42,735 nucleotides of DNA from Tissierellia bacterium (GTDB lineage Bacteria > Bacillota > Clostridia > Tissierellales > Peptoniphilaceae). Where the stretch lies: the NCBI GenBank assembly GCA_030537815.1, contig JAUNVF010000020.1, positions 1 through 42,735 on the forward strand, read 5' to 3'. The notes below the pieces were generated by a model. It saw only the letters and a program-made list of their open reading frames with translations. It had not been told where the DNA came from and ran no database searches. Positions 3,594 to 15,719 of this stretch are shown here, in pieces; within the stretch, counting starts at the first letter, position 1; each line of letters begins with the position of its first letter. The translations under genes and the position numbers were made by a program.

Positions 3594-5498
3594 ATGACAA
3601 GAGGGGATTTGAGATTTGAGTATTCAGAAGATTTATCTTTATATGCCCATTTATACCATGAGGGGACTAATGATAAATCTTATGAATTTTTAGGAGCTCA
3701 TTTTATTGAAAAAGAAGAGGATGAGGGTAAGGTGAGATTTTGTGTTTGGGCGCCAAATGCAAAATATGTCAATTTGATTGGTGACTTTAACGATTGGCAT
3801 GAATTTAATTTACCGATGAAGAGGATATCTGAAAGTGGGATATGGGAGATAACGGTTTCCGGAGTTAAAGTTTTTGATGCCTATAAGTATAGGATTGTAA
3901 CTCCCAATGACGATATCCGATATAAGGCGGATCCTTATGCTTTTCATGCGGAGGAGCGACCGAAATCAGCTTCTAAAATATATGATATAAAGGGTTATGA
4001 GTGGAATGATGATAAGTGGATGAAGAGAAGAAAGAAGACTGATATCTACAATTCACCTATCTCAATTTACGAGGTAAATTTATCGTCTTGGAAAAAGCAT
4101 TTAAATAATGCGAATTACTCTTATCTGGAACTCGCTGAGAATCTCGTTAAATATGTAAAGAGTATGAATTATACTCATGTTGAATTTATGCCATTAACGG
4201 AATATCCTTATGATGGATCTTGGGGATATCAGGCTCTTGGATATTTTGCACCAACTTCGAGATTTGGTACTCCAAAAGATTTTATGTTCTTAGTAGATCA
4301 ATTGCATCAAAATGGAATAGGAGTAATCCTAGACTGGGTTCCCGTTCACTTCTGTAAAGATGATCATGGTCTTGCTAAATTCGATGGTACTTTCTGTTAT
4401 GAGAGTGTTGATTTTTCAAAGGCATACAATGCAGCATGGGATACTTTGAATTTTGACTTCTCTAAAAATGAAGTAGTTAATTTCTTGATTTCTTCTGCTC
4501 TATTTTGGCATGAATACTATCATATAGACGGAATAAGAGTCGATGCTGTGGCTTATATGATTTATACGGATTTCACTAATCCGAGTTTAAAAAATCCCGA
4601 TGGGACAAATATAGATAAAGATTCAATTGAATTTATAAAAAAACTTAATAAAACCGTATATAAATATCATCCTAATACGATGATGATTGCGGAAGAGTCT
4701 ACGGCTTATCCGGGAATTACAGCTCCTGTACATGAAGGTGGACTTGGCTTTAGCTTTAAGTGGAATATGGGATGGATGAATGATATTATAAAATACATGA
4801 ATATGGATCCTGTTTTCAGAAAGGACCATCACAATGCACTAACATTTACAATGACATATGCTTTTTCAGAGAATTATATCCTTCCCTTTAGTCATGATGA
4901 AGTGGTCCACGCTAAAGGCTCAATGCTAAACAAGATGTTTGGAGATTATAATAATAGATTTAAACAATTAAGACTCCTATACTCTTATATGTTTTCACAT
5001 CCTGGTAAAAAACTCATGTTTATGGGTGATGAATTTGCTCAATATGATGAGTGGAATGAATGGGGCGAATTGAATTGGGAACTTTTGGATTTCGAATCTC
5101 ATGGCAAGATGCAATCATATGTTAAAGAAATAAATAGATTATACAAAAAAGAAAAGGCTTTAAATGAAATAGACGATAGTTTTGATGGTTTTGAATGGAT
5201 TGAGCATACGAATAAAGAGGAATCTATTATAGCATATGAGAGAATAGATAAAAAAGGAAATAAGGTAATCTGTATATTTAATTTTACACCTGTCGAGAGA
5301 TTGAAATATCCGATAGGAGTTGATAAGAGCGGAAACTACAGCATAATACTAAATTCAGATCATAATAGATATGGCGGAGATACAAAGAGAAATAAATATT
5401 TCAGATCTATTGATGAACCCATTCATGGAAGAGATTACAGAATCAATGTAGATATTCCTTCTTATGGGGGATTATGGATAAAGAGGAAGATTAGGTAG
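3594..5498 (+). CDS. glgB: 1,4-alpha-glucan branching enzyme
   Basis: GlgB cuts an alpha-1,4 glucan chain and re-attaches it through an alpha-1,6 bond, creating glycogen branches. The 634 residues contain an N-terminal CBM48/E-set domain (about 30-120) with the typical VWAPNA and GDFNDW motifs. A GH13 barrel follows, with nucleophile D317 (in GIRVDAVAY), acid/base E367 (in AEEST) and the HD pair at 434-435 (in SHDEVVH). A C-terminal beta domain closes the protein. The length is usual for the family. The ATG follows GGGAGG by six bases. It is the first gene of the glycogen operon, and the promoters lie in the 280 bases upstream. Confidence 0.96.
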   Translation: MTRGDLRFEYSEDLSLYAHLYHEGTNDKSYEFLGAHFIEKEEDEGKVRFCVWAPNAKYVNLIGDFNDWHEFNLPMKRISESGIWEITVSGVKVFDAYKYRIVTPNDDIRYKADPYAFHAEERPKSASKIYDIKGYEWNDDKWMKRRKKTDIYNSPISIYEVNLSSWKKHLNNANYSYLELAENLVKYVKSMNYTHVEFMPLTEYPYDGSWGYQALGYFAPTSRFGTPKDFMFLVDQLHQNGIGVILDWVPVHFCKDDHGLAKFDGTFCYESVDFSKAYNAAWDTLNFDFSKNEVVNFLISSALFWHEYYHIDGIRVDAVAYMIYTDFTNPSLKNPDGTNIDKDSIEFIKKLNKTVYKYHPNTMMIAEESTAYPGITAPVHEGGLGFSFKWNMGWMNDIIKYMNMDPVFRKDHHNALTFTMTYAFSENYILPFSHDEVVHAKGSMLNKMFGDYNNRFKQLRLLYSYMFSHPGKKLMFMGDEFAQYDEWNEWGELNWELLDFESHGKMQSYVKEINRLYKKEKALNEIDDSFDGFEWIEHTNKEESIIAYERIDKKGNKVICIFNFTPVERLKYPIGVDKSGNYSIILNSDHNRYGGDTKRNKYFRSIDEPIHGRDYRINVDIPSYGGLWIKRKIR

Positions 5499-5514: not shown

Positions 5515-6654
5515 ATGAGAAATAGAAATAAGATAGCCGCTATGCTCCTAGCAGGCGGTCAGGGTTCAAGACTTAAAGCGATGACAAAAGATGTCGCTAA
5601 GCCTGCAGTACCCTTTGGGGGTAAGTATAGGATAATAGATTTTGCCCTTAGCAATTCTACTAATTCGGATATAAGGGATATCGGAATACTTACCCAGTAT
5701 AAGCCATTTCTTTTAAATGAACATATTGGGATTGGTTCGAGTTGGGATTATAATAGAAATTATGGTGGATTAAGTATTTTATCGCCATATTCTACAGAAT
5801 CAGGCGGTAGATGGTATGAGGGAACGGCAAATGCTATCTACGAAAATATAGATTATTTAGATAGAATTGGCCCTGAATATGTACTAATACTTTCAGGAGA
5901 CCATATTTATAAGATGGACTATAATGAATTACTTAAATATCATAAGCAAAAAGGTGCAGATGTAACGATAGCAGTTATGGAAGTACCATGGGATGAAGCT
6001 TCGAGATTCGGTATAGTAAATGTCGACGAAGACGATAAGATTGTTGAATTTGACGAAAAACCAGAAAATCCTAAAAACAATATGGCATCCATGGGAATAT
6101 ATATGTTTAATTGGCCGACGCTCAGAGCTGCACTGATAAAAGATAATGCTATTGAAGATTCCAAGCATGATTTTGGAATGAATGTGCTACCGGACCTACT
6201 CAATAATAATAATCCGATGTATGTATGGAAATTTGACGGGTATTGGAAAGATGTCGGAACGGTTAGATCTTATTGGGAGGCTAATCTAGACCTTCTCGAT
6301 CCAAATAATACTCTCGATATATACGATAAGAACTGGAGAATTTATACTAGAAGTAGAAATCTTCCACCGCATTATATCTCGGAAAATGCTAAAGTTAAAT
6401 CTGCATTGGTTAATGAAGCTTGCGAGATATATGGAAATGTCACGAATTCTGTATTATTTTCCGGCGTAATAATAGAAGAGGGTGCAAGTGTGTACAATTC
6501 CGTACTCCTTCCCAATTCTGTAGTTAAGAAAAATGCAATCGTCTACAATTCTGTTGTCTTAGACGGTATAATAATAGAAGAAGATGAGTCGATAGGCAAG
6601 GAAGATGACGATAAGGTCTACTTGATATCAGATGAAGGAATAAATATAGAATAG
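5515..6654 (+). CDS. glgC: glucose-1-phosphate adenylyltransferase, catalytic subunit
   Basis: This enzyme makes ADP-glucose from ATP and glucose-1-phosphate, the committed step of bacterial glycogen synthesis. The 379 residues begin with the nucleotide-binding loop [10 protein letters not shown] and the conserved [19 protein letters not shown] segment. [20 protein letters not shown] and YWKDVGT then follow in order. A left-handed beta-helix of hexapeptide repeats (about 290-375) forms the C-terminus. AGGAGG precedes the ATG. glgD follows after nine bases. In Firmicutes GlgC usually works with GlgD as a mixed tetramer. Confidence 0.96.
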
Positions 6655-6663
6655 GAGGGCATT

Positions 6664-7791
6664 ATGGAAAAATGTATAGGTTTGATAAATAGCGGGGTCA
6701 ATAACGGAGCATTTAGCAGCCTTTGTGGTATTAGACCAGATTATATGTTGCCCTATGGAGGAAGATACAGAATAATAGATTTTGCTCTATCCAATATGAC
6801 AAATCACAATATATCAAATGTGGTGGTTTACGGTGGAAAGCATATAAGGTCAACTCTGGATCATTTGGGAAATGGTCAATCATGGGAGCTAAATAGAAGG
6901 CGTAATGGACTAATGATATTTCCCCCGATTTTTGAGAGCGACCTAGTCGTTCCGACTGATATATCGATATATTTTAATTCACTTAGATTTTACGAGCATT
7001 CTCCATTAAATACTGTATTTATGGATAATCCGATGACGATTATAAAGATGGATATGGACGAGGCATATGATAAATTCATAGAAGAGGATTTAGATGTCTT
7101 AATATTTTATAAGAGGCAAAAAGATACTGAGGGTAAGTATTTGAATGCGAGCAAGGTAATACTTGATGATGCTGGTGAACTCGTAAATATAGGTACAAAT
7201 CTGGGTACGGAAGATGAATTCAATCTGTTTTTGGGGAAAACTATAATTAAGAAAGATGTCTTTATAGATTTGGTCAAGGACTCGGTTGAGAAATCAAATG
7301 CCCATACGATGAGAAAAGCTATAATGAATAATAAAGAACATCTAAAAATTGGAACTTATCATGTAGACGGACATGTGGAAGTGATAAGAGATTTGAGATC
7401 TTATTATGAAGCAAATATGAATCTATTGGTTCCCGATATATACCATGAGATGTTTTTTGGAAGAAATAATATATATACCAAGTCAAAAGACGAGCCTTCA
7501 ACAATATACAAGGACTCCAGCAAGGTGAGCAATTCTCTTCTTGCAAATGGATGTATAATCGAAGGTCATGTTGAAAATTCAATTATATTTAGAGGAGTTA
7601 AGATTGGAAAAGACGCCATAGTCAAGAATTCAATCATAATTCAAAAATCGGTTATAGGTGCAGATTCTATAATCGTAAATGTAATTGTCGATAAATATGG
7701 AGTTGTGGAAGATGGAGTAACTCTAGTGGGTAATCCACTACAACCATATGTTATAGCTAAAGGTAAAACTATAGGAAAGGCAGAAGAATGA
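6664..7791 (+). CDS. glgD: GlgD, non-catalytic partner of ADP-glucose pyrophosphorylase
   Basis: This is a 375-residue paralogue of GlgC with the same fold: an N-terminal nucleotidyltransferase domain and a C-terminal beta-helix. It keeps [16 protein letters not shown] but has lost the nucleotide-binding loop; the GGxGxRL stretch reads as [16 protein letters not shown]-type substrate motifs are also absent. That pattern is typical of GlgD, which is inactive alone but raises the activity of GlgC. AGGAGGG precedes the ATG. The last bases overlap the glgA start (ATGA), so the subunit is translationally coupled to glycogen synthase. Confidence 0.94.
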   Translation: MEKCIGLINSGVNNGAFSSLCGIRPDYMLPYGGRYRIIDFALSNMTNHNISNVVVYGGKHIRSTLDHLGNGQSWELNRRRNGLMIFPPIFESDLVVPTDISIYFNSLRFYEHSPLNTVFMDNPMTIIKMDMDEAYDKFIEEDLDVLIFYKRQKDTEGKYLNASKVILDDAGELVNIGTNLGTEDEFNLFLGKTIIKKDVFIDLVKDSVEKSNAHTMRKAIMNNKEHLKIGTYHVDGHVEVIRDLRSYYEANMNLLVPDIYHEMFFGRNNIYTKSKDEPSTIYKDSSKVSNSLLANGCIIEGHVENSIIFRGVKIGKDAIVKNSIIIQKSVIGADSIIVNVIVDKYGVVEDGVTLVGNPLQPYVIAKGKTIGKAEE

Positions 7792-9206
7792 GAATATTAT
7801 ATGTAGCTTCAGAGGCATATCCATTTATAAAAACAGGAGGTCTGGCAGATGTTGCCGGATCTTTGCCTCTTGCGTTAAATGAAAAGGGACAGGATGTAAG
7901 GGTAGTAATACCATTATTTAATCAAATAGATCAGGAATACAAAGAGGAGATGGAATTTGTAGATTACTATTATGTCGACTTGGATTGGAGACATCAATAT
8001 GTAGGTGTCTACAAATACAAACACGAAAATACAATCTTCTATTTTCTGGACAATGAGCAGTATTTTAATAGAAATAATGTTTACGGAGAGCTTGATGATG
8101 GCGAGAGATTTTTGTTCTTCTCTAAAGCAGTGACCATGCTTCCGAAGATAATAGATTTCAAACCAGATATTATTCATTCCAATGACTGGCATAGCGCTAT
8201 GGTTAATGTCTTTTGCAAGGACTTTGCAAAGGGCGATGAATACTATAGAGATATTAAATTGCTATTTACGATTCACAATTTAAAATACCAGGGGATGTTT
8301 CCACCTGATCTGCTAAAAATTTCAGGACTTTCGCCGGAGTACTTTAGCGAGGATGCCCTAAAGTTTTATGATGTCATAAATTTCATGAAAGGTGGAATTG
8401 TTTTTTCCGATGCATTTAATACGGTTTCAGGTTCTTATGCACTTGAGATAAAAAATTCTTATTTTGGCGAAGCTTTAGATGGAGTTATCAGGAGATATGA
8501 ATACAAATTATCAGGCATTGTGAATGGAATAGATTATAATCTATGGAATCCTGAAACAGATAAATTTATAGATTATCATTTTTCAGCCGATGATCTTGAA
8601 GGAAAGAAAGAAAATAAAATCGCATTACAGGAGATGTATGGCTTACCTGTGAGGGAGGATATCCCAATAATATCGATAATTTCCAGACTTGTCGAGATGA
8701 AAGGGCTGGACCTCGTTTCATATATACTAGATGAATTATTGTACGAAGATATACAATTCGTAGTCTTAGGTACGGGTGATCCCAAATATGAAGATATGTT
8801 AAAGTATTTCCAATGGAAATATCCACAAAAAGTGGCTGCTAGATTATATTATAATAATGATGAATCGCATAAAATATATGCGGGTAGTGATTTCTTGCTC
8901 ATGCCATCTCTGTCAGAGCCTTGCGGCGTTTCACAGCTCATAGCTATGAGATACGGAACTGTGCCGATAGTGAGAGAAGCGGGTGGATTGAAAGATACAG
9001 TTAAGCCCTTCTCAGACTTTAATCAGGACGGTACAGGATTTAGTTTTACTAATATAAATGCACATGATATGCTTTATACTATTAGGAGAGCAATTTCCTA
9101 TTATTATAGCTTAGATTTTGATACAATAAGAAGAAATGCAATGAATACTCAAAATAATTGGGAGGAGTCATCAAAAGCTTATATAGAATTGTATAAGAAA
9201 ATTTGA
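7788..9206 (+). CDS. glgA: glycogen synthase, ADP-glucose dependent (GT5)
   Basis: GlgA extends the non-reducing end of an alpha-1,4 glucan with glucose from ADP-glucose. The 472 residues show the N-terminal loop KTGGLADVAGSLP (about 16-28) that contacts the sugar nucleotide. HSNDWHSA, HNLKYQG and NGIDYNLWNP follow in the N-terminal Rossmann domain. The C-terminal domain has ISRLVEMKGLDL and the acidic ESCGVSQL-type motif, here SEPCGVSQL. The start overlaps the glgD stop by four bases, with AAAGG in front. Confidence 0.96.
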   Translation: MRILYVASEAYPFIKTGGLADVAGSLPLALNEKGQDVRVVIPLFNQIDQEYKEEMEFVDYYYVDLDWRHQYVGVYKYKHENTIFYFLDNEQYFNRNNVYGELDDGERFLFFSKAVTMLPKIIDFKPDIIHSNDWHSAMVNVFCKDFAKGDEYYRDIKLLFTIHNLKYQGMFPPDLLKISGLSPEYFSEDALKFYDVINFMKGGIVFSDAFNTVSGSYALEIKNSYFGEALDGVIRRYEYKLSGIVNGIDYNLWNPETDKFIDYHFSADDLEGKKENKIALQEMYGLPVREDIPIISIISRLVEMKGLDLVSYILDELLYEDIQFVVLGTGDPKYEDMLKYFQWKYPQKVAARLYYNNDESHKIYAGSDFLLMPSLSEPCGVSQLIAMRYGTVPIVREAGGLKDTVKPFSDFNQDGTGFSFTNINAHDMLYTIRRAISYYYSLDFDTIRRNAMNTQNNWEESSKAYIELYKKI

Positions 9207-9214
9207 TACAGATT

Positions 9215-11569
9215 ATGAAACTTTCCGTAAGTCAATTTAAAGATAAATTAATTAGTTATTTATATTCTATAACCGGTAAGGACTTGAGAACTGCCAATAA
9301 TGAAGATATGTATATGGCGATAAGTTATCTGCTTAGAGAGATAATCGGCATGAATTGGGAAGATTCAAAGATAAAATACAATAATTTAAAGACTGTATAT
9401 ATTCTATCCTTTGAATACCTCCCTGGGAAAATGCTGGAGAAGAATTTGCTTTACCTAGGACTAAGAGATATTGCAGAATCGGTTTTAGGAGAATTGGATT
9501 TTAAATTAGAAGATATCCTAGATATTGAAACAGAGCTGGGGATTGGTCATGGAAGCTTGGGCGCGATATGTGATTCATATCTCGATTCTTTGTCGACCAT
9601 GCAATTCCCCGGATTTGCTTATGGAATTAGATATGAAAGAGGACTGATGATACAGAAACTCGTAGATGGAATTCAAATAGAAGAGCCGGACAATTGGTTA
9701 AAGAAGACAAATGTATGGGAGTTAAAGAAATACTATAATTATGATATCGAATATAAGGATTTTCAAGTAAAAGCTCAGTCATTCGACTTTCCTTATATTG
9801 GATATGATAATAAATCAGTTAATACTATGCGCCTATGGAGTGCAGAGCCTAAAAATGATTTAAAATTTGATTCATTTTCTAAAGGCAATCTTCAAGAAGC
9901 ATATGATGAATATATAAAATCAAAGTCGATTTCAGAATTCTTATACCCTGATGACAGCACAAGAAAGGGAAAGAGATTTAGGCTTATGCAGGAATACTTC
10001 TATGTTTCTGCGAGTATAAAAGACATCATAAGAAGATATTTTAAATACAAGGGAAATATACTAAAATTGGGTGATAGGATTTGCATAGAAATCAATGATG
10101 TTCACCCAATATTAGCAATACCTGAGCTTATAAATATCTTGACTGTAGATTATGGTTTGAGTTATGAGATGAGTTTTAAAATCTCGTCAAAATTATTTAC
10201 TTACACCAATCATACAACATTATCAGAGTCATTTGAATTATGGGATATTTCATTGATAGAAGATGTAATCCCTCAATTAGTCAAGCCGATAAGGTATTTA
10301 GACGAATTATCGAGGAAGGAATTCAAGGAAATGGGCATTTCTGATGATGAAGTTTTTGAAATGGCGATTATTCAAAATTCCCATTTGAATTCCGTCAATT
10401 TGGCATCTTTTGTATCTAGGACTATAAATTCGCTATCGGACATGCACCAATACGTATTGTCCAAAGAAAACCTAAGGGGTTATTATAAGTATTATAAAGA
10501 TAAATTTATCGTAAAGAGGGGATCTATAAACCATAGAAGATGGTTACTAAAATCTAATAAAAAGCTGACTGATTTAATAAGTCAAACCATAGGGGATGAT
10601 TTTAAAAGGGATTCCAATAAGATGATTGAATTATTGGAATACAAAAATGACGGGATTTTATTAGATGAATTGGGAAGAATTAAATATGAGAATAAAAGAG
10701 AGGTCGCAGAATATTTAAAGAAAGAGTTGGGAATAAAGATAAATCCTTACTCTGTATTTGACATGCAGCTTTCTAGATTTCACGAGTATAAGAGACAGCT
10801 TTTAAATGCTTTTAAGATAGCTAGCGATTATTTTTTATTAAAAGAGAATTGCAATTATGATATAGTGCCTAGAACTTATTTCTTTGGCGGTAAAGCTCCT
10901 TCTAGTTACTATATAGCAAAAGAGATTATAGCTTTTATCAACTCATTGATGAAGGTCATCAATAATGATAGATTGATAAAAGATAAGATAAAAATAGTAT
11001 TTATTGAAAATTTAAATATATCAAAAACTGAATTTGCGATAAAAGCGGCGGATGTGAACGAAAGTCTTGCAACTGCATCAAAAGAATCAGCCAGTATGAG
11101 TACTTTGAAATTCATGATGAACGGCGCTATCACCATAGGTGTTTCGGATGGACTAAATAAAGAAATATTTTCTGATTTGGGCAGAGGAAATTATTTTGAA
11201 TTCGGTATATCTTCAGAAGAAGTCATGGAAAATGACAGAGGAGGATATAATGCTTATGAATACTATAATCAGTCACCTGAAATAAGAAATCTCATAAATA
11301 GATTAAATAATAAAAGCATGACAGAATTTCAGTATAATTTTAAACCAATATATAATATGCTGATAAAATACAATGATAGCTTTATGGTTTTGAGGGATTT
11401 TCTCTCATATAAAAAGGCTCAGGAAAGACTAGAAAAAAGATATAGAGATGAGGTTGGATGGAACGAGATGGCTTTAATCAATATTGCCAAATCCGGCAAA
11501 TATTCAAGCGATACTACAATGCTTGAATTTGCTGATATGGTATGGAGAATAAACAATGAAAATATATAA
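9215..11569 (+). CDS. glgP: divergent glycogen/starch phosphorylase homologue (GT35)
   Basis: The fold is clearly that of glycogen phosphorylase, which releases glucose-1-phosphate from chain ends with a PLP cofactor. Visible family motifs include SFEYLPGKMLEKNL, YGIRYERGL, TMRLWSAEP, EINDVHPILAIPEL, YTNHTTLSES, FHEYKRQLLN and LKFMMNGAITIG, in which K632 is the expected PLP lysine. The length of 784 residues is normal. Several usually fixed active-site positions differ, however: NHRRW with GS before it replaces NGITPRRW, and the PLP-phosphate loop reads ESASMSTLK rather than EASGTGNMK. I prefer the ATG at 9215. An upstream TTG at 9203 overlaps the glgA stop. Neither has a clear ribosome binding site. 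The enzyme may be altered or a regulator. Confidence 0.85.
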   Translation: MKLSVSQFKDKLISYLYSITGKDLRTANNEDMYMAISYLLREIIGMNWEDSKIKYNNLKTVYILSFEYLPGKMLEKNLLYLGLRDIAESVLGELDFKLEDILDIETELGIGHGSLGAICDSYLDSLSTMQFPGFAYGIRYERGLMIQKLVDGIQIEEPDNWLKKTNVWELKKYYNYDIEYKDFQVKAQSFDFPYIGYDNKSVNTMRLWSAEPKNDLKFDSFSKGNLQEAYDEYIKSKSISEFLYPDDSTRKGKRFRLMQEYFYVSASIKDIIRRYFKYKGNILKLGDRICIEINDVHPILAIPELINILTVDYGLSYEMSFKISSKLFTYTNHTTLSESFELWDISLIEDVIPQLVKPIRYLDELSRKEFKEMGISDDEVFEMAIIQNSHLNSVNLASFVSRTINSLSDMHQYVLSKENLRGYYKYYKDKFIVKRGSINHRRWLLKSNKKLTDLISQTIGDDFKRDSNKMIELLEYKNDGILLDELGRIKYENKREVAEYLKKELGIKINPYSVFDMQLSRFHEYKRQLLNAFKIASDYFLLKENCNYDIVPRTYFFGGKAPSSYYIAKEIIAFINSLMKVINNDRLIKDKIKIVFIENLNISKTEFAIKAADVNESLATASKESASMSTLKFMMNGAITIGVSDGLNKEIFSDLGRGNYFEFGISSEEVMENDRGGYNAYEYYNQSPEIRNLINRLNNKSMTEFQYNFKPIYNMLIKYNDSFMVLRDFLSYKKAQERLEKRYRDEVGWNEMALINIAKSGKYSSDTTMLEFADMVWRINNENI

Positions 11570-13421
11570 TATTCCTGAAGATGAAAAATTGGGCATGATA
11601 TATTCAAAGTCATCGACCGTCTTTAAAGTTTGGGCACCTGCTAGAAATAAGATAAGCCTATTGATATACGAGGAATATAATTCTGTTAGAAGAAGAAAAT
11701 ATCAAATGATTAAAGACGAAAAGGGGATATTTAAAGCTACAGTAGATGGAGATTTAGATGGACATTTTTACACTTATTTAATAGAAGATAAATACGAAGT
11801 AACTGATCCCTATTCAGTTGCTTGTTCAATTAATAGTGAAAAATCTGCCATCGTAGATTTAGCATCCACTGACCCCTTGGGTTTTAGAAATCATAAAGCA
11901 CCTGATAATAATTACAAGGATGCTATTATTTATGAAGTTCATGTCAAAGACTACTCGATAGATATCAGTTCGGGAACTTTGAATAGGGGAAAATACACTG
12001 GTCTAGTTGACAGGAATTCAAATTATAAAGACTATAGTACCGGACTCAAGCATTTAAAAGATCTTGGCGTCACTCATGTGCATCTAATGCCTATAGCAGA
12101 TTTTATAACTGTAAGAGAAGAAAATGAAAAATTTTTTAGCATAGATAATTATAATTGGGGATATGATCCGGAGCTGTATAATGTGCCAGAAGGGACTTAT
12201 GCTACCGAACCGAGAGATCCTAAGAATAGGATAAAAGAACTTAAAGAACTTATTATGGCACTCCATCAAGAAGGCATTTCAGTAGTTTTAGATGTGGTAT
12301 ACAATCATACTTATAGGAGTGCTGATTCAAATTTTAATACCATAATGCCTATGTACTATTACAGATCTTTCAATGGAGGTTTCTCAAATGGATCGGGATG
12401 TGGCAACGAATTTGCTTCCGAGCGGAATCTAGCGAGAAAATTTATAATCGATTCTCTTAAATATTGGCAGAGCGAATATAGAGTTGATGGGTTCAGATTT
12501 GACCTTATGGCATTGATAGATAGAAAGACGATTTACAAAGCGGTAGAGGAACTTAGGAAGGCGGATCCCAATACTTTGATTTATGGTGAGCCTTGGGCAG
12601 CACAAAGCTCTCCCTTGCCATTGGAAGAGATGACGGGCTTCGGCTCGCAAAAAAATAAGAATTACGCTTTATTTAATCCCTTCTATAGAGATGCTTTAAA
12701 GGGAGAGGGAGATAATCCGAATCGAGGATTTCTTCAGGGAGACCATAATTATAAAAATGCTGTAGAAACCGGAATACTAGGATCTATAGATTATGATGAG
12801 ACTCATAAAGGTTTTTGTTCAGAACCAGATGAGACAATTAATTATTATAATTCTCATGATAATCTAATAATAACAGATAAACTAAAATTATGGTTTGGTG
12901 ATATAGTAGAGATACCCGAAATCGCAGCATTAGCTACATCTATAATCATGACCAGTCAGGGAATACCATTTATACATGCAGGAAATGAATTCCTCAGAGA
13001 TAAAAAACTCGTGAGAAATAGTTATAAATCTGATCTTACTGTAAATGGAATTAATTGGTCATTAAAAGAAAAGTATTTTGACTTATTTAATTATACAAAA
13101 GATATTATCGAGATTAGAAAAGAAATGAATTGCTTTAGTTTAAGCGCAGAAGAGATAAGAAAGAATATCAGACTAATTCCTGACTTACCTGATAGGATTA
13201 TAGCCTATGAGATCAATTCAGACTTTAAATATTTGATAGTGCATAATAGCGGATGGGATGATTATATATTAGATTTAAGTAAAATTAAGTCAAATTCCAA
13301 AAAAATAGATAGAGAATTTGAGTATAGTATAATTTTTGATAAAAGCGGGAAAACAAATATGAGACAGAGCACGAAACTCTTAAATACAAAGAGGATATCG
13401 ACAACCATAATAAGGTATTGA
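11556..13421 (+). CDS. pulA: type I pullulanase, glycogen debranching enzyme
   Basis: This is a 621-residue GH13 enzyme that hydrolyses alpha-1,6 branches. An N-terminal CBM48-like domain (about 15-95) has the motif FKVWAPA. The type I pullulanase signature NWGYDPELY lies near residue 200. The expected catalytic residues are D316 (in FRFDLMAL), E345 (in YGEPWAA) and the HD pair at 434-435 (in SHDNLI). No signal peptide is present, so it acts inside the cell on stored glycogen. The ATG lies inside the end of glgP (14-base overlap), eight bases after a GGAG. The product complements the phosphorylase, which cannot pass branch points. Confidence 0.94.
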   Translation: MKIYNIPEDEKLGMIYSKSSTVFKVWAPARNKISLLIYEEYNSVRRRKYQMIKDEKGIFKATVDGDLDGHFYTYLIEDKYEVTDPYSVACSINSEKSAIVDLASTDPLGFRNHKAPDNNYKDAIIYEVHVKDYSIDISSGTLNRGKYTGLVDRNSNYKDYSTGLKHLKDLGVTHVHLMPIADFITVREENEKFFSIDNYNWGYDPELYNVPEGTYATEPRDPKNRIKELKELIMALHQEGISVVLDVVYNHTYRSADSNFNTIMPMYYYRSFNGGFSNGSGCGNEFASERNLARKFIIDSLKYWQSEYRVDGFRFDLMALIDRKTIYKAVEELRKADPNTLIYGEPWAAQSSPLPLEEMTGFGSQKNKNYALFNPFYRDALKGEGDNPNRGFLQGDHNYKNAVETGILGSIDYDETHKGFCSEPDETINYYNSHDNLIITDKLKLWFGDIVEIPEIAALATSIIMTSQGIPFIHAGNEFLRDKKLVRNSYKSDLTVNGINWSLKEKYFDLFNYTKDIIEIRKEMNCFSLSAEEIRKNIRLIPDLPDRIIAYEINSDFKYLIVHNSGWDDYILDLSKIKSNSKKIDREFEYSIIFDKSGKTNMRQSTKLLNTKRISTTIIRY

Positions 13422-13423
13422 TT

Positions 13424-14014
13424 ATGAAATACTCTTTGAAAAATCCTGGAATTTTAAATATATCAGAAGGTGTATTTGGCGGTGACCAAGCTTGGTTTAG
13501 CGATGAAAGAAATCCATTTTCAAAAAGAGGCTGTGGGATAATTGGAGCTGCAAATACTATAATTTATCTGGCATTTACGCGAGATGAATACAGGGCGCTT
13601 TATCCATTTGAATATATCAATAAGAATAATTATATTAGATTTATGAATATACTGAGCTATTATATCAGGCCGAGTATAATGGGAATACCGTCGATAGGAA
13701 TATTGAATAGAGGAATCAATTCCTATACTAAAGAAAAAAATATAATCTTAAATAATCAAAAATTAATTAAATGCAGCAATAAATTGGAGATAATGGATTT
13801 TATAATCAGCGCTTTACAAAAAGATACGCCTGTATTATCTGTAAACTGGAATCATCGGAGAAAAATTCTAAGTTACCATTGGATAACTATAACGAGATTG
13901 GAAATGAAAAATGATTGGAAATTAGGCTTTTCCAGTTGGGGTAAATACTATAGTATGGATTTAAAGGATTTTATATACAATAATCTATACAATGGAATGA
14001 TGTATTATTATTGA
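13424..14014 (+). CDS. C39/papain-like cysteine peptidase homologue, function unknown
   Basis: This 196-residue protein has no close match that I can name. It has a plausible cysteine-peptidase layout: GCGIIGAANTI with C37 at the start of a helix, SYHWITITRLE with H152, and then GFSSWGKYYSMDL near 168-180, which would supply the third residue. No signal peptide or membrane segment is visible, so it is probably cytosolic. I chose the ATG at 13424 because AAGG lies eight bases before it; the TTG at 13418 overlaps the pulA stop. It sits between pullulanase and phosphoglucomutase in a tight operon. A peptidase-like protein is unexpected there, and it might process or bind a glycogen enzyme. That is speculation. 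Confidence 0.6.
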   Translation: MKYSLKNPGILNISEGVFGGDQAWFSDERNPFSKRGCGIIGAANTIIYLAFTRDEYRALYPFEYINKNNYIRFMNILSYYIRPSIMGIPSIGILNRGINSYTKEKNIILNNQKLIKCSNKLEIMDFIISALQKDTPVLSVNWNHRRKILSYHWITITRLEMKNDWKLGFSSWGKYYSMDLKDFIYNNLYNGMMYYY

Positions 14015-14030: not shown

Positions 14031-15719
14031 ATGGACTACAAAAAGAAATATGAAGAATGGGTCAATGGAGATTCTTTTGATCAGGAAACTAAAGATGAAC
14101 TATTGGCAATAAAAGACGAAGATGAAATCGAGGATAGATTTTATCAGAATTTGGAATTTGGTACTGCAGGTCTAAGAGGTAAAATCGGAGCCGGTACCAA
14201 TAGGATGAATAAATACACAGTAGGGCTTACAACTCAGGGATTTGCCGAGGCCATCCTCAAGAGGGGTGAAGATGCTGCTAAAAGAGGCGTGTCTATATGC
14301 TATGATGTCAGACATAAATCTAAGGAATTTGCGGAGCTGACAGCATCGATATTTGCAGCAAATGGAATCAAGGTATATCTCTATAGAGATATAAATCCGA
14401 CGCCTATATTATCTTATACGATAAGGTATTTTAAAAATATCGCAGGAGTTATGGTTACAGCAAGCCATAACCCAAGGGATTATAATGGATACAAGGCATA
14501 CTGGGAGGAAGGTTCGCAGATACTTGAGGATCTGGCAAAGGAAATACTAGATAATATAAATGATTTGGGTGGTTATGACAAGATCAAAAAGATTCCTTTT
14601 GAAGAAGGACTTGAAAAAGGCATTATTGAATATATAAAAGACGAGGTATACGAATCTTATATACAAGATGTTTTAAATTATACGATTAATGAAGATATAG
14701 ATAAGGATATAAAAATCGTATATTCAGCATTAAATGGAACAGGTAGCGTTCCAGTAAAAGATATTTTACACAGAAGAGGATTTAATAATATTTATATAGT
14801 TGAAGAGCAGGATAAGCCCGATCCCGATTTTACTACCGTAGGTTATCCGAATCCTGAAGATCCAAAAGCATTTTCATATGCAATTGAGCTGGGCAAAAAA
14901 CATGATGCCGATCTTTTGTTAGCAACAGACCCTGACTGCGATAGGGCGGCTATAGAAGTTAGAGACGAGGAAGGGAATTACCAATTTTTAAATGGAAATA
15001 AGATAGGGGCACTTCTCATAAATTATATATTGGAACAATTGAGTGAAAAGGGAAAACTACCCGAGAATGCAGTTATTGTCAAGTCTATAGTTACCGGTGA
15101 CTTATCTAAGGCAATAGCGGGAAAATACGGAGTAGAGGTAGTCGAGACATTGACAGGATTCAAGAATATCAGTGGTAAAGCCAATGAATACGATAAGACA
15201 GGAGAAAAAGTATTCTTGTTCGGATATGAAGAAAGTATTGGATACACTTATGGGGATTCTGTAAGAGATAAAGATGCTGTAAATTCATCTATGATGATTG
15301 CAGAGATGGCAGGATTTTATAAGAAGAAAGGGAAAAGTCTGCTCGATGTTTTAAATGATTTGTACGAAGAATACGGCTATTATAATGAAGAGCTTTTATC
15401 TATAGTTCTCGATGGTCTTGACGGTAAGGAAAAGATAGAGAGGATAATGAAAGATTTTAGAAAGAATCCACTTGAGAATATAGGCGATATGAAATTAGTT
15501 AAAGTAATCGACTATTTAAATGACGATACCGGTAATCCAAAGTCAAATGTTTTAAAATGCTTTTACGATGACGGTTCATGGTTTGCACTAAGGCCTTCAG
15601 GAACCGAGCCAAAAATAAAATTATATATTTATACCAAAGCGGATAATTTTGAAAAGAGCGAAGAAAAAATAGAAGATATCAAAAAATCAGGACAGGATAG
15701 AATAGATTCAGTTGAATAG
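14031..15719 (+). CDS. pgcA: alpha-D-phosphohexomutase (phosphoglucomutase/phosphomannomutase)
   Basis: This enzyme interconverts glucose-1-phosphate and glucose-6-phosphate, linking glycogen turnover to glycolysis. The 562 residues carry all four family sites in order. The phosphoserine loop TASHNP has catalytic S145, and the metal loop TDPDCDR has D300, D302 and D304. The sugar-binding loop is GYEESIGY, and the phosphate-binding loop RPSGTEPK lies near the C-terminus. The length fits the long PgcA-type subgroup of Firmicutes. AGGAGG precedes the ATG. It is the last gene of the glycogen operon and is followed by a strong terminator. Confidence 0.95.
   Translation: MDYKKKYEEWVNGDSFDQETKDELLAIKDEDEIEDRFYQNLEFGTAGLRGKIGAGTNRMNKYTVGLTTQGFAEAILKRGEDAAKRGVSICYDVRHKSKEFAELTASIFAANGIKVYLYRDINPTPILSYTIRYFKNIAGVMVTASHNPRDYNGYKAYWEEGSQILEDLAKEILDNINDLGGYDKIKKIPFEEGLEKGIIEYIKDEVYESYIQDVLNYTINEDIDKDIKIVYSALNGTGSVPVKDILHRRGFNNIYIVEEQDKPDPDFTTVGYPNPEDPKAFSYAIELGKKHDADLLLATDPDCDRAAIEVRDEEGNYQFLNGNKIGALLINYILEQLSEKGKLPENAVIVKSIVTGDLSKAIAGKYGVEVVETLTGFKNISGKANEYDKTGEKVFLFGYEESIGYTYGDSVRDKDAVNSSMMIAEMAGFYKKKGKSLLDVLNDLYEEYGYYNEELLSIVLDGLDGKEKIERIMKDFRKNPLENIGDMKLVKVIDYLNDDTGNPKSNVLKCFYDDGSWFALRPSGTEPKIKLYIYTKADNFEKSEEKIEDIKKSGQDRIDSVE

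Follow-up and report, generated by a model that had tools for sequence, protein, structure and literature searches.

The glycogen operon in the window (the whole stretch of 42,735 nucleotides analysed here, from a Tissierellia bacterium) holds, directly after glgA, a gene for a phosphorylase homologue with altered residues at catalytic positions, here called GlgPx. The question it raises is whether such a protein is still a working phosphorylase and, if it is not, what it is kept for. Few enzymes have been studied as well as glycogen phosphorylase. From comparisons of sequences we lean towards the reading that GlgPx is an operon phosphorylase that lost catalysis and has been kept as a pseudoenzyme, probably as an alpha-glucan-binding accessory.

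The phosphorylase slot of the glycogen operon

The genes of the operon run in the order glgB-glgC-glgD-glgA-GlgPx-pulA-orf198-pgm, all on the plus strand:

3594..5498, plus strand: glgB, branching enzyme; NF008967 above cut-off
5515..6654, plus strand: glgC; NF003670 and TIGR02091 above cut-off
6664..7791, plus strand: glgD; TIGR02092 above cut-off
7788..9206, plus strand: glgA, glycogen synthase; NF001898 and TIGR02095 above cut-off
9215..11569, plus strand: GlgPx, degenerate GT35 phosphorylase homologue of 784 aa between glgA and pulA; ORF, PF00343, TIGR02093
11556..13421, plus strand: pulA, type I pullulanase; TIGR02104 above cut-off
13418..14014, plus strand: orf198; no Pfam or NCBIfam family at 1e-3
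14031..15719, plus strand: pgm, phosphoglucomutase/phosphomannomutase family gene; four PGM_PMM domains

The GlgPx frame is intact from its ATG at 9215 to the stop that ends at 11569 (the mechanical ORF list opens it at a TTG at 9203). Eight bases lie between the glgA stop and this ATG, and the end of the frame shares 14 bases with the start of pulA. Lying downstream of glgA and upstream of a debranching-type gene, GlgPx corresponds in place to the bacterial GlgP of glg operons (GT35, EC 2.4.1.1), to which it is homologous over its whole length; published accounts give the operon order as glgBCDAP-amy-pgm in L. acidophilus (PMC4282360) and as glgC-D-A-P-amy in C. difficile (PMC11423593). Whole-domain homology places GlgPx within GT35, PF00343 matching residues 92-779 of 784 with 706.8 bits and TIGR02093 scoring 760.9 bits against a cut-off of 552.9. 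A score above the TIGR02093 cut-off speaks for the simplest alternative, namely that GlgPx is an ordinary working glycogen phosphorylase and its changes are tolerated variation, which the residues of the active site lead us to regard as very improbable.

Residue changes in the window's protein

Residues of GlgPx were mapped by phmmer against human liver phosphorylase, by multiple alignments, and by aligning a sequence profile of three close orthologues to one of 11 canonical enzymes; this profile-profile alignment spans 779 columns with a probability of 100%. Positions such as N133 carry rabbit/human phosphorylase numbering. The segments concerned, all placed by these alignments, are:

9545..9562, plus strand: GHGSLG, residues 111-116; canonical GNGGLG; N133H, G135S
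10205..10216, plus strand: TNHT, residues 331-334; H377 kept as H333
10520..10543, plus strand: GSINHRRW, residues 436-443; canonical NGITPRRW; N484G
10769..10795, plus strand: LSRFHEYKR, residues 519-527; canonical VKRIHEYKR; K568S (S520), with R569 and K574 kept
11084..11110, plus strand: ESASMSTLK, residues 624-632; canonical EASGTGNMK; loop 675-678 changed

The main substitutions described in the initial annotation hold. GNGGLG has become GHGSLG in all three kinds of alignment, the substrate asparagine of NGITPRRW is lost, and in the PLP-phosphate loop the canonical GTGN of positions 675-678 has become SMST. The PLP lysine (K632 = K680) and the KRQLLN segment are retained, as had also been said, and so is E672, as E624. 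The claim that the equivalent of H377 is N392, on the other hand, is wrong: residue 377 is the His of YTNHTVL, which GlgPx keeps in TNHTTL, and the segment GSHAVNGV (residues 448-455), which had been matched to HLNSVNLA, aligns to VSRTINSL at 400-407. His450, moreover, is present in only 17 of the 58 canonical rows and is therefore not diagnostic. The change at K568 had been absent from that annotation.

Several of the changes in GlgPx are ordinary ones. P488H and R649N are also found in canonical operon enzymes, G677S in canonical enzymes of other families, and Leu in place of Tyr at position 90 in canonical bacterial rows of the multiple alignment; the first three of these, together with the retention of the PLP lysine, R569, K574 and H377, would suit a working phosphorylase. 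Against this, all 58 canonical rows agree at N133, G135, N484, K568, G675 and T676, and GlgPx is altered at each of them, so that it departs from bacterial GlgP at the very positions of the donor, phosphate and PLP loop that are invariant there. Among the 51 intact slot proteins described below, N484 is present in 2 and K568 in 5.

The slot gene in the window's family and beyond

The window's family was surveyed in 130 genomes, the slot gene being sought with GlgPx at E 0.001 and glgA with GlgA at E 1e-60. GlgPx matched in 76 genomes, four of them with weak partial matches only, and a GlgA homologue was found in 81. A degenerate GT35 gene lies directly after glgA in 52 of these 81, the window's genome included; the GlgPx-type change is not private to the window's species. 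All 52 slot genes have glgA directly before them and 51 have pulA after them, the remaining locus (L051) ending at a contig end. The frame is open over about 700-790 codons in 49 of the 52, with 25-66% identity to the window's GlgPx, and broken in L075, L076 and L087, where the gene falls into two frames through either an assembly error or a real loss. Fourteen of the 29 GlgA-bearing genomes for which no slot gene was listed were examined, and none had a GT35 gene beside glgA.

With 29 of the 81 GlgA-bearing genomes lacking it and three of its 52 copies broken, the slot gene is dispensable. The broken copies, and the empty place beside glgA in the 14 genomes examined, are also what might be expected if GlgPx had become redundant once a second phosphorylase had taken its place and were now slowly decaying. 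We consider such decay improbable, given the many copies that remain open at these lengths and identities and the selection described below.

Outside the family, two of the loci examined in another family of the same order (f18, genus g75), L128 and L129, have a slot protein of the GlgPx kind. In nine operon loci belonging to further families of this order the GlgP is canonical; its gene follows glgA immediately in six of them and sits between glgB and glgC in the other three (L138-L140). A class-wide search of 393 genomes with a genus-g3 slot protein as query retrieved at least 30 loci, 3 from the window's family and 27 elsewhere; the 27 outside the order are all canonical in signature, and glgA adjoins 20 of them. 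Because some true slot proteins score as low in that list as canonical enzymes do, degenerate copies elsewhere are possible. In a scan of named genomes with the window's protein, the 36 loci found (L172, L174 and L178 being split or partial) were canonical wherever the signature columns were covered.

Loss of catalytic and PLP positions in the slot clade

The loss was counted over 13 catalytic and PLP positions (133, 135, 377, 484, 568, 569, 574, 672, 675-678 and 680), leaving out the broken frames L075, L076 and L087, the contig-end fragment L086, the possible foreign copy L041, and rows with identical C-terminal 300 residues. Canonical rows keep all 13 in 57 of 58 cases and 12 in one, while the 51 intact slot proteins keep between 0 and 7, the column assignments being less sure in the most divergent of them (L077-L079, L128, L129). 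The window's protein keeps 5, its orthologues L084 and L085 keep 6 and 7. Set against 13 of 13 in 57 of the 58 canonical rows, the changes in GlgPx are not chance, and with 5 of 13 it falls outside GT35 as judged by the conserved donor, phosphate and PLP-phosphate residues. Most of the slot clade is without K680, R569, E672 and H377. The loss of conserved catalytic residues that marks a pseudoenzyme is thus present, more weakly in the window's GlgPx than in the clade.

The PLP lysine itself is kept in only 11 of the 51 slot proteins, so PLP is not an essential feature of the slot family; that the clade goes on to lose this lysine is a further point against an ordinary phosphorylase. The earlier suggestion that GlgPx is a PLP-bound regulator like GlgD may still apply to the window's protein, and fits few of its relatives. 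It could also be argued that GlgPx is still an enzyme of altered specificity or chemistry, a PLP-dependent GT35 protein with another donor or acceptor in the window's subclade and a PLP-free one with a rebuilt pocket in others. All three rows of the window's subclade keep the PLP lysine, which speaks for such an enzyme, but N484, the loop 675-678 and, in part, K568 or G135, which are tied to donor, phosphate and PLP, have changed, and the losses of K680, R569, E672 and H377 extend over most of the clade. We judge an altered enzyme unlikely.

Among 153 canonical-invariant columns, the 13-column donor/PLP set is kept at 0.18 as against 0.50 overall (subclade-weighted), and no random set out of 20,000 fell to that level. 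For the acceptor side we used ten positions that we take to be contacts: E88, N133, Y280, R292, D339, H341, E382, H571, A610 and Y613. This set, named after some of its members had already been seen to be kept and hence a lead and not a blind test, is kept at 0.65, which exceeds the donor set (P 0.002); its excess over the invariant columns as a whole is not clear (P 0.066). In the 51 slot proteins E88 and Y280 are each kept in 50, R292 and Y613 in 49, H341 in 47, H571 in 45, D339 in 41, E382 in 13, N133 in 8 and A610 in 2. With donor, phosphate and PLP positions lost and several presumed acceptor-side contacts kept, the idea of another acceptor, also put forward earlier, looks less likely.

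Selection and descent

Of 30 pairs, 17 were usable (dS <1.3), and in these the NG86 dN/dS of the slot gene ranges from 0.05 to 0.21, much like that of pulA, although the pairs share sequences and are not independent. Values so far below 1 in close pairs point to selective maintenance of the clade and argue against slow decay, for which the faster divergence of GlgPx than of glgC, glgA and pgm would speak. In the window's own pairs dS is saturated, and dN is 0.26 for GlgPx as against 0.25 for pulA. The earlier argument against decay therefore stands for the slot-protein family, by purifying selection in the 17 usable pairs, and for the window's GlgPx rests on the open frame and a dN like that of pulA.

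The pocket was compared over 38 positions, some of which are simply retained, so that part of the conservation reported here is retention. In the genus-g3 slot proteins (28 rows) it is conserved at 0.70 as against 0.55 for the average column (P 0.001), and in the window's subclade (3 rows) at 0.72 as against 0.63 (P 0.09). A genus-g3 pocket conserved in a new form is hard to square with decay. The genus-g3 excess would also suit an altered enzyme, but retention explains some of it, and the excess in the three rows of the window's subclade is weak.

In quick trees the slot proteins come together as a single clade (SH-aLRT 99 with 76 rows, 100 with 39 rows), and this clade groups with the operon enzymes of other families (SH-aLRT 96 and 94); synteny agrees with descent of the slot gene from an operon enzyme. 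Joining the slot clade to the enzymes linked to malQ instead was disfavoured and not firmly rejected (p-AU 0.056). Rate covariation singled out no partner for GlgPx, the partial correlation being 0.26 with PulA and 0.19 with GlgD, while that between GlgD and PulA was 0.35.

A canonical phosphorylase beside malQ

The initial annotation had proposed a search for a second, canonical phosphorylase, and the window's genome (84.6% complete) proved to have one other GT35 gene, which is canonical (C60, 972 bits) and adjoins malQ, encoding 4-alpha-glucanotransferase (TIGR00217, 370.9 bits, cut-off 205.65), the two genes overlapping by 35 bases. GlgPx is thus both encoded with the glycogen genes and paralogous to a catalytic member of its family, as would be expected of a GlgD-like protein. 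The interpretation first offered survives in part, in its case against decay and its second phosphorylase, and loses the evidence drawn from H377. In the window's family, 37 different loci with a stand-alone canonical gene were examined. A malQ homologue was present at 21 of them and a homologue of glgA, glgC or glgD at none, within the stretches retrieved; many of these have only about 1.5 kb of flank, so that a gene missing there is not evidence of absence. No canonical copy was found in two carriers of the slot gene, G027 (86% complete) and G060 (91% complete), which counts against the reading of a pseudoenzyme beside an active paralogue. In three further carriers, G011, G015 and G078, the canonical enzyme matches in pieces or lies at the end of a contig.

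Two of these merit separate mention: the stand-alone canonical matches G011:C22 and G015:C247 come in two pieces, as if the frame were broken, in genomes that both carry the slot gene. G011 also holds an extra GT35 gene (L041, G011:C21) of mostly canonical signature and without glg neighbours; the genome is listed with 4% contamination, and the gene is perhaps a foreign sequence.

A possible role for GlgPx

It is probable that the window's GlgPx is not a working phosphorylase, and highly probable that the slot clade as a whole is not; the fold is presumably retained. The window's member is among the less eroded of the slot proteins, so that it may still bind PLP, and with K680, R569, K574, E672, Y573 and H377 all kept it may even be active. 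In the pathway that we propose, a glycogen-operon phosphorylase ancestral to GlgPx would have lost phosphorolysis, selection would retain its product as a pseudoenzyme, and the active phosphorylase encoded beside malQ would degrade the glucan. GlgPx itself would most likely still bind alpha-1,4-glucan chains, since the presumed acceptor contacts E88, Y280, R292, H341 and Y613 are kept, and it might then serve its operon neighbours (GlgA, PulA) as a glycogen-binding accessory or regulatory subunit, or else work together with the active phosphorylase; we put the chances of a glucan-binding accessory role at about even. A more specific version is tentative and to us falls a little short of an even chance. 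In it, a single conversion of the operon phosphorylase would have given a PLP-independent scaffold or regulator that binds glycogen and has a conserved pocket, rebuilt in part, and this protein would now be an established component of the operon in much of one family and in a related lineage.

Such a fate would have parallels. GlgD is described as a regulatory subunit of GlgC in some bacteria (PMC10395257). GlgPx, too, is encoded in the glycogen operon and is paralogous to a catalytic enzyme of glycogen metabolism, and its proposed mode of action would be alike; GlgD, however, belongs to a different protein family, and GlgPx is not known to form a complex with a partner or to affect one. The plant beta-amylase homologues BAM7 and BAM8, according to another paper, are inactive in vitro and work as transcription factors (PMC12892837). 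They resemble GlgPx as alpha-glucan enzymes that would have lost activity and been kept for another role, and differ from it in being transcription factors of the beta-amylase family in plants. In the structure of a barley enzyme the acceptor occupies subsites +1 to +4 (PMC5391026), and further papers were drawn on (PMC3737437, PMC12208373, PMC11465516, PMC6411801, PMC11046441). None of the matches listed in our literature search concerned a degenerate GT35 protein in a glycogen operon, most subscription papers lying outside its scope.

The family model names GlgPx a 'glycogen/starch/alpha-glucan family phosphorylase'. If the clade is inactive, not only would that name be wrong for many species, but so would metabolic models that place phosphorolysis in the glg operon. 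The series from the window's member, with its PLP lysine, to genus g3, without it, would then preserve in nature the steps by which a phosphorylase gives up catalysis as selection continues to act on its fold, and would suggest that bacterial glycogen metabolism has a non-enzymatic component. Relatives of the slot protein are kept intact by selection in dozens of species, which suggests a former enzyme that now has a different, perhaps glycogen-binding, job.

Other genes of the operon

Mean distances in 49 operons are 1.26 for GlgPx, 0.78 for GlgD, 0.75 for pulA, 0.46 for pgm, 0.44 for glgA and 0.36 for glgC; pulA (11556-13421 in the window, with its counterparts in the slot operons) evolves faster than glgC, glgA and pgm. 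The product of orf198 (198 aa) has no Pfam or NCBIfam match at 1e-3, its best Pfam match lying below that family's cut-off. Homologues occur in the glg operons of L077, L078, L079, L081, L082, L084, L085 and L098, and since the operon of L098 is without GlgPx, orf198 is not tied to it. Further homologues adjoin the stand-alone canonical phosphorylase at six loci (L017, L018, L021, L024, L028, L033). The gene sits between pulA and pgm in some operons and travels with glycogen genes.
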